The position numbers and the translations under genes are program-made. Positions 25,535 to 64,000 of a stretch of 64,000 nt of DNA are shown here, in pieces (position 1 is the stretch's first letter; each line of letters opens with the position of its first letter). Source of the stretch: Owenia fusiformis (taxonomy: Eukaryota; Annelida; Polychaeta; Sabellida; Oweniidae); assembly GCA_903813345.2 (NCBI GenBank), contig CAIIXF020000009.1, forward strand, positions 16,147,759-16,211,758, in the 5' to 3' direction. The notes under the pieces were generated by a model, which saw nothing but the letters and a program-made list of their open reading frames with translations, was not told the DNA's origin and did not search any database.

Positions 25535-26475
25535 ATGGTTTTGAAATTCAGCTGTCATCTTTAGATTTCTTCTTTAGTAGAGCTCTTATGTCCCAAGCCA
25601 TCAGCATATAGAATTTAGTCCAAATCAGTCTACTGGTACTTGATTTATTTAGATTACATGTTTAATGAAAAATAGCGGGGATTTCAATAAATGGCAGCCA
25701 CCTTGAAAATTTCTTCTCAAGCAGAACTCCTTTATCTAGGCATCTGTATATGAAATTTGAAGTAAATCCGTCCAATGATATTTGAGATATCAAAGATTAC
25801 CTTTTTTTATGAAAAATGGCAGCCATTTTGAAATTCAGCTAACGCCTTTGAAATTTCTTCTAAAGCATATCTCATTTTTTCCTAAACATCAGCATATTAA
25901 GTTGGAACCAAATCCATCCACTGGTATTGGAGTTATCAATGACTACATTTTTTACGAAAAATGGCAGCCATTTGGAAATTCAGCGGCCATTTTGAATATG
26001 TCTTCTTGAACAGAATTTCTTTTTCTCTATGCATCAGCATATTGAATTTGAACCAAATTCATCAACTGGTATTTGAGTTATCAAAGGTTACGTTCTTTTA
26101 TGAAAAATGGTGGCCGTTTTGAAATTTAGCTGCCATCTTGAAAAATTTTTCAAGATGGCTGCCATGTATTCCTTCTGTATTTACATTTCTAGCTTAATCA
26201 ATGTCCAATATAACTTTTTTACATTTAAAACATATTGCTATTACAGTTTTATATACAGTACATAAATTGCTGTAAAATTGACTAAAATGATTGCCAATTA
26301 AATGAGTGGCCATTTTGAAAATTGGTTTCCAAGCAGAACTTCTACCCCCATTGGGTAAACGTGTACAAAATATTAACAAAATCAGGCCAGCAGTATTTGA
26401 GTTATTGCTCGGACGGACAGCCGGACGGACGTACGGAGGCGTTCTCTATATCCCTCCTTACTTCGTTCGATGTGA
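25535..26475 (-). mobile_element. Chimeric A-core / B-5'-end Helitron-like element
   Basis: From 25535 to about 26140 the repeat units are A type (CATCAGCATAT, TTTGAACCAAATTCATCAAC-like phrases, ATCAAAG then TTAC). From about 26150 the sequence is B type: the TTTACATTTCTAGCTT and CTATTACAGTTTTA blocks, a CAGAACTTCTACCCCCAT block, a microsatellite near 26408-26440 and a diverged terminus TTATCACATCGAACG. The 3' hairpin end is missing at the left. Confidence 0.65.
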
Positions 26476-26639
26476 TAATTATCATCATATATATTGTTCA
26501 TTTGGTCAGGTGATGCTAACTTCTCAAAAAATACTGTTTCCATGACTCTCTAACCTCCTCAGCATCAGTCAATTAAATTCCTTCTTCATCAAGTATTCAT
26601 CAGGTATTCTTGACATTTTCTTGCCTTTGTTTAAAAATA

Positions 26640-27673
26640 GTACCGTGGGTACTGGCCTCAGATGGTGTTGCTCAAAAGTGAATGATGGCTAAAATGACAA
26701 AAAAAAAAAAAAAAGTACCATAGGTACTAGGCTCACATGGCGTTGCTCAAAAGTGAAAGATGGCTAAAACGACAGAAAAAAAACAATATAATCTTTTGCT
26801 GATTTTTTGTAACAAAATTATTTCAAGCCACTTGCCATTATTTGGACTGACTAAAAGACAGATGGACAAATCGATGTGAAGTAAAGTGGCTGAAAAAAAA
26901 CCAGATATAATTTTTTGCCAATTATTTGCAACAAAACTATTTCATACAACTACTCTTTACAGTGACATGGCCTTTCGCAAAGCAGGACATCTGAAATTAT
27001 TTGTAAATTTACATGGATGGATTTTTACAATGTAGGACACTTGAAATTATTTGTAAAGCTAGGAAATGGGTCAAAAGGGAATTTCGCGAGACAAAAATGG
27101 CGGCCATTTTGAAAATAGGCGAGCTTTTGAACTAGGAGTCATAGGGGAGTTTTCTGTATTGATGTTGAACAGAAATAACTTAAAACAGGAATCAACAGAG
27201 GTTTTAAAAGTGCCACTATTGTTGACGGATGGACGGACGGACGGACGCACGACAGACAGATGGACAAGCAGGGCTTAAAGCAACAATTTCAAATTTCCTG
27301 AAAACTGAAAGGTGAAAGATGCGGGCCAATCCAGTGGTGGGTTTTGGCAGAACCTCCCACCAAGAAAATTTGGAAAAATGAGATTTGATTGAGTGCTTCT
27401 TAGAGTAATATAGACCCAATACACATACTTTCAAACTCAGATGAAAAAGTATTTTCATAGGAAAAAATTTAACAAATATGACCTTAATTTTTTGAAACCC
27501 TTGCTTGACCCTCTACTACCCCCCCCCCCCCCTCTAGAAATAATCCCATATTTGTGTTGAACTCAATGGGGTCAGATTTTGGTCAATTTTTTCCTGAAAC
27601 TTCCTGAAATGCCTGAAGACTTTAAGCCATGGACAAGTGAGCGATTGCAAAAGCTCACCATGTGAGCTAATAA
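26640..27673 (-). mobile_element. E-family Helitron-like element with duplicated 3' end and nested MITE
   Basis: The 3' end appears twice, at 26640 (GTACCGTGGGTAC) and 26715 (GTACCATAGGTAC), each followed by a similar 45-bp segment, so the end is tandemly duplicated with a 75-bp period. The body has AAAATGGCGGCCATTTT at about 27100 and a microsatellite at 27223-27262. The 5' end CACCATGTGAGC..TAA is at 27654-27673. A 361-bp insertion separates the microsatellite from the 5' terminus. Confidence 0.75.
27269..27629. mobile_element. hAT-like MITE, 361 bp, with 8-bp target duplication
   Basis: The insert is flanked by TGGACAAG at 27261-27268 and again at 27630-27637. Other E copies have this octamer's segment only once (GGACAAGTGAGCG at 56644 and 62944). 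The ends are CAGGGCTTAAAG at the left and CTTTAAGCCA at the right, an imperfect inverted repeat. An 8-bp duplication and a CAGGG start fit the hAT superfamily. It contains a C12-like run near 27520. Confidence 0.7.
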
Positions 27674-28834
27674 ATACCACAGGTCTTTTTGTGAAACACT
27701 AGCATCTTCAATTGTGATATCAATTTGTTTGTTATATTCATACTCAGCATGCCTAAAGCTTTCCTTAATGCATTTTTTAGACTCTCATTTTTATCCAAAG
27801 AATATTATTGGATCCCCTTGGTTTTCCCGCTGCACACCAGTTATCATAAGCAATATAAGATTATGTGTTTCAATGTCCATTTTATAATGTTATTTAGTAA
27901 ACTGATCATTGTGTTTGCAAAGGTTTTGAATATATTAAGGTATGCATGATTGGTATGATATTCTTTACTTCTATGAATATGTGAATAATATTACTAGAGG
28001 AATATGACTGAATGTTGTACGGAATAAAATTGAATTAAAGAATATTGTTTTCTTGGTGAAATGCTAATTTGAGTACTAAACCTAAATATTGTCTCTTTTA
28101 GTAATGCAAAAAGTAGTGCATTGATTATTTATTTCACTATGTCAACCACAAGAAAAATGTCTACAAACTTCCAAAAATCAAATCAAAAATGGTTTATTTT
28201 CACTTTTTCATAGTCAACCAGACTGTATTTACTAAAATAAAATTATAAGCCCCATGTTAATTTATCAATCTGGGGAAGGAACAGTCAATACTTTTGTTTG
28301 ATATGCATATATATCAATTTATCCACAAAAACATATTCAGCCAATCGATAAATGCATGAGGAATACATCGAGGTATGACATTTTGTTATCTAGTCTGGTG
28401 AGAACAGTTTCATGGTGTTATAGCATGACGGCTACGGCATCTCTGAAAACCAGGTTGGACGGCTACGTTCACTGATTTATCCAATAAAATGGCCGAGATG
28501 GAACAGAAAACTAAGGTTGCTGCATCATTTTCTACTACTGTGTGTCAATGAAAGGATGAACAATTTATGTAAGCATGGCATTCGTTGATGCATTTCGAAA
28601 TGTATATTTTGAACGTAGTCTTTGCAAATTGATGCCTGGGGATAACAAGAAATAAGTGAAAAACTGTTGAGTTTGAAATTCAAAACTACACAAAAGGATG
28701 AGTCTAGGAATGAGTCTGGGTATCGACTTAGAAAATATTGAAAATTGTAATGTCTGAAAAACCAACTCAAACTTCAACATCCTTCTTCTGAGAGTACAAA
28801 AATATCAATCTGTATTACAATTAATTAATAATTA

Positions 28835-63524: not shown

Positions 63525-63700
63525 CTGGAGATAGGCAGACAAAATTACTCAAAATACACAAAATTAGTATTACAACCGGTATTGATTGAAAAATGCTTAA
63601 CGATTCATGTCATATCTGCATCTCTTATATTCAAGTCCCTCCACATCTAATACATAAGTCCCTCGAACACTTATACACTTTTGATGAGATGATGCCATAC
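63525..63700 (-). other. EPRS1 intron, 176 bp
   Basis: This is the only short intron in the window. It has GTATGG at its donor and CTCCAG at its acceptor. No repeat was recognised in it. Confidence 0.85.
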
Positions 63701-63802
63701 CTCCTCCTCAGCTTCAGGTTTGGTAGCAAATGCTGTGTGGCCCTCCTGCCATAGGAACTCTCTAGTCCTCAGGAATGGTTGTGGGTGTTTGAACTCCCAC
63801 CT
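63701..63802 (-). CDS. EPRS1: EPRS1 exon with class II motif 2
   Basis: This exon encodes 34 residues beginning [16 protein letters not shown] and continuing through [11 protein letters not shown] to an acidic EAEEE end. It is motif 2 of a class II aminoacyl-tRNA synthetase, whose arginine and glutamate contact ATP and prolyl-adenylate. The acceptor is TTTGTAG just above 63802 and the donor is GTATGG just below 63701. Both are canonical, and the exon is 102 nt with phase 0 at its 3' end. It is the first exon of the gene inside the window; upstream exons lie past 64000. An A-family Helitron-like 3' end at 63842 is only 40 bp from the acceptor side. Confidence 0.96.
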
Positions 63803-63841
63803 CTACAAAGAAACAACAATATATATTTGACCATGTCACAA

Positions 63842-64000
63842 CTAGAAAAATAGCAACTCCACGGAGTAGCAAATCCCACTGAACAAATCATGTTTTGATA
63901 AAAATTTTGAGCCAAATTCGTCTACTGTTTTTGAATTATCAAAGATTATGTTTTTATGAAACATGATTGCCATATTGAAATTCAGCTGTCATCTTTGGAT
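63842..64000 (-). mobile_element. A-family element, 3' end, continues beyond the window
   Basis: CTAG at 63845-63842 with the ACTCCACGGAGT hairpin and CCCACTGAAC, then the first A core unit. The rest lies right of 64000, within the upstream intron of EPRS1. Confidence 0.7.

Follow-up and report, generated by a model that had tools for sequence, protein, structure and literature searches.

Several HINE families in a 64-kb window of the Owenia fusiformis genome, two of them tied to autonomous Helentrons

The 64,000-nucleotide stretch of the Owenia fusiformis genome analysed here (hereafter the window; C9:16147759-16211758) carries several families of HINEs, that is, internally deleted copies of Helentrons, which are endonuclease-encoding rolling-circle transposons. 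The Helentron/HINE identity is well supported. Because the ends are specific to each family, the copies point to several cognate machineries of one kind, and we place the probability of this reading as a whole at about 0.9. We found defined ends and boundaries, insertion without duplication in six events, and intact-frame parents of families D and F (Helentron-D and Helentron-F) with matching ends and a related core. A preliminary description of the sequence had likened the layout to that of Helentron-associated HINE/DINE elements; the coinciding boundaries, the duplication-free empty sites and the Rep-helicase-endonuclease parents of D and F bear this out.

Families, ends and insertion sites

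The genome searched was the 498-Mb assembly of 525 contigs, in which C1 to C12 are the chromosome-sized ones among the contigs whose size was looked at. BLAST with the family queries (E up to 1e-6) yielded 19 family copies or fragments above 25.5 kb in the merged list and no family match in the window below that position (Table 1). Family F is an addition to the families listed previously, and one A copy and one B copy are nested within E copies. ARAGORN found no tRNA in the window.

Table 1. Elements and fragments in the window (positions in nucleotides from the start of the window).
Feature	Position	Strand	Basis and remarks
HINE family A, complete, inside E copy 3	60796..61968	-	ends TTATCCCACC...CTAG, then TT; gapless empty site in E monomers, 94%
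A copy, 5' part only	60067..60426	-	BLAST and 5' end
A-type core array, opposite orientation	56684..57442	+	BLAST
A-type core array adjoining the 5' end of F	51410..51848	-	BLAST and reading of the sequence
3' end of an element that extends past the window; A-type ends, core largely unlike A	63842..64000	-	BLAST and end comparison
HINE family B, complete, inside E copy 2	52831..54390	-	ends TTATCCCATC...CTGG; gapless empty site in E copies, 97.8%
HINE family B, complete	32184..33316	-	BLAST; flank join without empty-site match
HINE family B, without 5' end	39607..40698	-	BLAST
C of the preliminary description, without 3' end: B-type 5' block 26145-26478, A-type core 25539-26437	25539..26478	-	BLAST, junction query
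HINE family D, copy 1 (D1)	44705..45885	-	ends TTATGTCACCACC...CCTTG, then T; 90.4% to the Helentron-D 5' region over 1187 aligned positions
HINE family D, copy 2 (D2)	45925..46914	-	ends compared
HINE family E, copy 1, 3' end approximate	26632..27673	-	BLAST and ends
HINE family E, copy 2, B copy inside, 3' end approximate	52777..56686	-	BLAST, ends, empty site
HINE family E, copy 3, A copy inside, 3' end approximate	60711..62986	-	BLAST, ends, empty site
HINE family F, last bases diverged, long unassigned internal stretches	47231..51410	-	TTATGTCCCCACC...GGTGGGGACATATTGTACA
G array, core related to F (46.8 bits vs shuffle maximum 24), without defined ends	41049..41410	-	core comparison

Most structural features given in the preliminary description for the element ends were recovered. 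In the window, A, B, D and E all begin with TTAT on the 5' side. The 9-12-bp subterminal sequences said to be inverted at the two ends of these families far exceed chance and shuffles, the four motifs giving 3, 4, 6 and 4 matches at paired ends for 0.03, 0.06, 0.00 and 0.18 expected. Such repeats lie close to the 5' end and again, inverted, near the 3' end, a pairing seen in each of the families A, B, D, E and F; by reading, the subterminal repeat is identical over 11 nt in D (ATGTCACCACC) and F (ATGTCCCCACC). An automated search for such pairs was set aside; it returned apparent chance matches and missed the real pair of D because it required a 6-bp stem. Microsatellite tracts of the GTCC/GACG type and tandem cores are also present, the GACGCC tract of D having been read directly. 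The hairpins of A and B fold 11 nt before CTAG or CTGG, in line with the ~10 nt described. Single-strand folds of the 3' ends gave z values of -1.94 for A, -1.85 for B and -1.75 for E; the hairpin prediction was weak in D (z -0.99) and none was obtained in F (z -0.09), whose 5' palindrome reached a z of only -1.23.

The boundaries of the scored genome copies, searched family by family, coincide with these ends. We scored 40 copies per family from roughly 1259 (A), 880 (B), 955 (D), 979 (E) and 1240 (F) candidates, and in all five families the matches to the query end near the same base. In the fetched copies, the 3' end is CTAG followed by TT in 17/17 rows for A (16 copies, one with a second end), CCTTG followed by T in 11/11 rows for D, and TTG followed by T in 8/8 rows for F, with CTTG in 7 of them. 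The B end is CTGG followed by TTTTC in 9/9 rows, which were selected for that flank by its presence in the query; the B and E boundary sets are both biased in this way. The E 3' end is placed only to within CTAATTTTA, and one larger repeat flanks 8 of 12 E copies. Exact 31-33-nt 3' subterminal motifs occur genome-wide 432 (A), 1454 (B), 1605 (D) and 169 (F) times, and their backwards-read controls 0 times each.

Empty sites define the inserted unit. Flanks were joined for 24 insertions and an uninterrupted counterpart was sought in the window and in a small set of fetched loci. Seven joins match across the junction, corresponding to six independent events that cover A, B and Helentron-D. Besides the two nested copies in Table 1, these are two A copies (95.9% at L013; 80% over 46 bp at L007), a Helentron-D on C11 inserted in a B copy, with one T different, and a gapless B-in-F event visible at two loci. 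Two joins are gapped and doubtful (A at L009; Helentron-D on C10), for 15 others the small set of loci searched offered no match, and no clean empty site for an E or F insertion was among the 24. The unit inserted spans TTAT to CTAG, CTGG or CTTG, and the target is a T-rich site; the six events show no target duplication beyond Ts. TIR ends with target duplications, which the preliminary description had named as contrary evidence, were thus not seen in them. The insertion site fits A-T as well as T-T, as the Ts can be assigned to either side.

These observations bear on the reading that A, B and E are canonical Helitrons, or an intermediate group, instead of Helentrons. Canonical Helitrons are moved by a rolling-circle Rep-helicase and have a 3' hairpin and a CTRR end. 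The window elements resemble them in the first respect, in a 3' hairpin (weak in D and not predicted in F), and in A and B also in a CTRR-like end (CTAG, CTGG), which D and F lack; the E end is placed only approximately. Insertion beside A would likewise agree with this reading: in the 12 of 16 fetched A copies with the 5' end in the fetched stretch, TTAT is preceded by A in 10 and by G in 2. A Rep-helicase gene on C6, with an 1873-aa frame that terminates after the helicase, also speaks for it. However, A-T is here indistinguishable from T-T, and the elements start with TTAT rather than with the canonical TC, which is absent; the empty sites assign TTA to the insert and make TTAT part of it. 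Moreover, the subterminal inverted repeats and the 5' palindrome are Helentron features, and the D and F parents differ from canonical Helitrons in their C-terminal endonuclease. We consider a canonical or intermediate affiliation of A, B and E unlikely.

Autonomous parents, cores and machinery

Two autonomous Rep-PIF1-endonuclease elements, of ~12.1 and 12.2 kb, bear the ends of D and of F together with related tandem cores. Helentron-D has an open frame of 2424-2576 aa, and across 812 aa spanning helicase and endonuclease its copies on C6 (C6:5172597-5184714), C10 and C11 are reported to be 100% identical. The first 60 nt, with the D 5' end, are identical among the three copies; the D 3' end lies downstream of the gene and matches window D1 in 33/33 nt, and the D-type tandem core sits upstream of the gene. 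Helentron-F (C1:4661043-4673245) has the ends of F and a 2053-aa frame, and its 5' region matches window F at 77% and 91% in two main blocks. DUF6570, Helitron_like_N, PIF1 and a two-Tyr motif were found in both proteins. The Rep HUH motif has the Helentron Ser after RG in Helentron-D (RGSPHIH), Helentron-F (RGSVHSH) and group I (RGSPHVH). The endonuclease match is above the Pfam cut-off in Helentron-F and below it in Helentron-D (E 0.0011), for which no PDB endonuclease match was obtained.

Over the last 60 nt, copies and parents agree at ~50/67 (D) and 46-47/66 (F) aligned positions; the 3' signal is common to copies and parents, and the stretch preceding it is not. The D and F copies fall below the 80% rule, which, in the consulted sections of PMC4067079, ranks subfamilies and not the superfamily. 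We read the D and F HINEs as deletion derivatives of Helentrons.

An autonomous Rep-helicase element with matching ends, as had been anticipated, thus exists for D and for the added family F. For A, B and E, reading the flanks of 19 Rep/helicase loci, several of them on a single side, turned up no such element. These loci comprised group I (C5, C38), group II (C2, C3), group III (C6, C1), one on C12, the D group (C6, C10, C11, C47), the F parent (C1) and weaker relatives on C1, C5, C6, C7, C2, C8, C10 and C4. PF14214 matched 58 places in the genome, and most of those beyond the 19 loci are fragments or group I-III copies located on small contigs. A- and B-type ends near these Rep/helicase genes look like separate inserted copies, some of them oppositely oriented; in one case, upstream of group III, a B copy lies within an F copy. 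In the group I and III units, the flanks match between two loci throughout the fetched stretch, so their own ends lie beyond it. The second group I locus, on a 46-kb contig, may be an alternative haplotype.

The cores were compared pairwise, with 20 shuffles per pair. The pairs A-B (138 bits), A-C (429), B-C (50), E-F (109), F-G (47) and D-Helentron-D (1125) stand out, the shuffle maxima being 25 for A-B and 28 for E-F. The D core rose above its shuffles with no other family. A-E, B-E and E-C reached 34-35 bits over 40-57 bp, slightly exceeding the shuffle maxima, and A-F, B-G and F-C did so barely. The two larger core lineages may be remotely related. The cores are therefore not all unrelated, as the proposed shared plan had it: those of A/B/C are homologous, as are those of E/F/G, and D stands apart.

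The unit C, originally listed as a family, combines a B-type 5' block with an A-type core. A 121-nt query across its junction matched in full only at its own locus among 40 scored loci (1575 candidates), and the other 39 stopped at position 70 (35 loci), 77 (3) or 93 (1). By reading, the junction lies at an inverted microhomology. Judged from these alignments, C looks like a one-off chimera, with a B 5' block joined to an A core, and not like a family. In the element at 63842, which has A-type ends, the core matches A over only 61 bp, and E and F have a common core unit under different ends. Core exchange has thus occurred in C, in the 63842 element and in the E/F unit, but looks occasional; cores largely travel with their ends, because the D core is found inside its autonomous parent.

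This evidence also weighs on the interpretation first proposed, in which a single protein mobilises all families as modules with freely swapped, interchangeable cores. The common layout, the three cases of core exchange and the failure to find parents belonging to A, B and E would agree with it. Nevertheless, the D and F parents are separate elements, 47% identical over the 812 aa of helicase and endonuclease and with different ends; the D core resides in its own parent, and the A and B cores and 5' blocks are homologous throughout. No A, B or E machinery was found at the 19 loci examined, and we judge one common machinery improbable. MITE-like TIR transposons, or chance motifs within satellite arrays, would account for inverted repeats near both ends and for tandem arrays, but are scarcely credible given repeats that are subterminal and asymmetric, six events without duplication beyond Ts, motif counts far above shuffles, and D and F ends on Rep-helicase parents, which contradict a TIR/MITE reading of these two families.

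Returning to the Helentron reading with family-specific machineries, we propose that the Rep-PIF1-endonuclease protein of an autonomous Helentron would nick at the TTAT 5' end, that one strand would be peeled off up to the 3' hairpin and the terminus (CTAG, CTGG or CTTG in A, B, D and F), and that the freed strand would be joined to a T-rich site. The 5' palindrome, the subterminal repeat and the 3' hairpin region would be the signals retained in every family. The tandem core, which varies in length, would originate in non-coding sequence at the 5' side of the autonomous element. What we infer here is the enzymology, present-day movement, how the signals act, and that A, B and E have parents.

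Orientation of neighbouring insertions

In the window, 17 copies or fragments lie on the minus strand and 2 on the plus strand (counted from the BLAST list). The host gene is also on the minus strand, with exons near 37.0-37.2, 44.5-44.7 and 63.4-63.8 kb; its anticodon-binding domain is supported by Pfam, and we take it to be prolyl-tRNA-synthetase-like, the enzyme name and the other exons being assigned by recognition.

Co-orientation was examined on part of one contig, C1, for families A, B, D and F. The sample consisted of the first 100 of 1605 D places, the first 100 of 1454 B places, the 75 places on C1 among 100 listed for A (432 in total) and the 22 on C1 among 100 listed for F (169 in total). 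Among these listed places, cross-family pairs 5-20 kb apart are on the same strand in 24/26 cases, a value reached by 0 of 2000 sign shuffles, and pairs less than 5 kb apart in 7/8 (p 0.037). Beyond 20 kb cross-family agreement declines, to 30/50 at 20-50 kb (p 0.10), 47/85 at 50-100 kb (p 0.21) and 68/126 at 100-200 kb (p 0.25). When pairs within and between families of this sample are taken together, the corresponding counts are 39/47 (5-20 kb), 47/74, 75/128 and 127/220, followed by 216/432 at 200-400 kb and slightly under one half at 0.4-1.6 Mb. The effect is weaker in single families: runs statistics on these places gave z of -1.96 for D, -1.55 for B, +0.82 for A and +0.23 for F, against -4.06 for the merged list. 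Genome-wide, the strand totals of the A, B, D and F motifs are close to even.

In a second listing, which took A and F as far as 29 Mb, strand agrees in 50 of the 58 pairs spaced 20 kb or less. All 58 spacings differ, so a single co-amplified unit is not the cause of the co-orientation. Poly(A) signals do not explain the bias either, with antisense/sense counts of 1/0 in A, 1/3 and 1/2 in two B copies, 1/0 in D1, 3/2 in D2, 6/1 in E and 9/10 in F. The scale of the coherence suits genes better than replicons, and 24/26 seems high for selection on intron insertions alone. We tentatively suggest that the orientation of insertion may copy the local polarity of the host chromosome, different families within ~20 kb being nearly always co-oriented and, in the window, following the strand of the host gene.

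A fork-polarity effect is described for bacterial IS200/IS605 elements. If polarity is set at insertion, by single-stranded DNA from transcription or from one fork arm, Helentrons would be the animal counterpart of this effect. If genome-wide, the orientation coherence would reveal the places and the manner of single-strand insertion in an animal genome, and it could be tested with gene and replication maps. The consulted portions of the literature (among them PMC5371812, PMC7145194, PMC11136912 and PMC9977687) contain no report of co-oriented Helitron-type insertions; according to a passage on rice, no TE family there has a strong orientation bias.

Relation to known elements and significance

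Bivalve pearl-type elements have a tandem-repeat-core layout, as do the window elements. Further parallels are the HINE/DINE-1 elements and Helentrons of Thomas et al. (2014; PMC4067079), which, in the sections consulted, share with the window families palindromic subterminal inverted repeats, a 3' palindrome (predicted weakly in D and not in F), a T-rich site without target change, tandem repeats in some elements, and an origin as deletion derivatives of Rep-helicase-endonuclease parents. Compared with the elements in those sections, the autonomous parent of D also carries the tandem core, located upstream of its gene, the ends of A and B are CTRR-like, and the 3' repeat of D, F, A and B starts, by reading, ~31-43 nt before the element end, versus 38-60 bp in the mite families.

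Similarly, the Cg_HINE elements of Crassostrea gigas (Vojvoda Zeljko et al. 2020; PMC7492417), as presented in the parts consulted, have satellite-like central arrays, a GTCY, GTCC or GTCK microsatellite beside the 5' block, subterminal repeats, a TT preference, and related flanks with different monomers. In the oyster, according to the same parts of that study, autonomous Helentrons could not be related to the HINEs, whereas here the autonomous link is present for two families, D and F. The direct ties of these two families to Helentrons address the gap stated in the consulted text of the oyster study (PMC7492417). In addition, the D parent, which holds the tandem core itself, shows a possible origin of such a core without free swapping of modules.

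Other features in the window

The domain pair of the 997-aa open frame is as in LINE elements. The long inverted repeat looks like a fold-back element; it is flanked by short tandem arrays, one on each side, and also has a match on contig C7 (locus L039). At about 49590-49670, we also observed a likeness to tRNA-derived sequence, judged by eye, and ARAGORN predicted no tRNA over the whole window.

Features of the window and Rep genes elsewhere in the genome
Feature	Location	Strand	Remarks
997-aa open frame	window 21230-24223	minus	endonuclease and reverse-transcriptase domains
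Long inverted repeat	window about 29541-30444		arms ~350 bases; read from sequence
Short tandem arrays, CTACCGTATTTTT-like unit	window 31131-31480 and 29010-29082
Group I and III Rep genes	L019-L022, L030, L031, L090-L092, L098-L100
Rep-helicase gene	L037 (C6:27111700-27121500)		1873-aa frame

Orientation and spacing of HINE copies

Nearby insertions of different families of HINEs, the short gene-less derivatives of Helentrons, run in the same strand direction, both at positions 25535-64000 of the window and on contig C1 of the assembly (G000). In this part of the window, 17 copies or fragments lie on the minus strand and two on the plus strand; on C1 the strand agrees in 24 of the 26 cross-family pairs spaced 5-20 kb apart, among the matches listed. 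Contig C3 carries an exact family A-type 3′ motif at each of positions 2834048, 2836153 and 2838258, all on one strand and separated by exactly 2105 bases. This looks like a head-to-tail array, a possible product of rolling-circle copying.

Rep genes elsewhere in the genome

In groups I and III, the frame of the Rep gene reaches about 3200 aa and encodes OTU and Herpes_teg_N-type domains besides Rep, PIF1 and endonuclease; these genes lie within long units that extend past the sequence compared. A full family F HINE, with a family B element inside, was located upstream at both group III loci compared. The frame at L037 stops past the helicase; therefore, this gene perhaps represents a canonical Helitron alongside the Helentrons.
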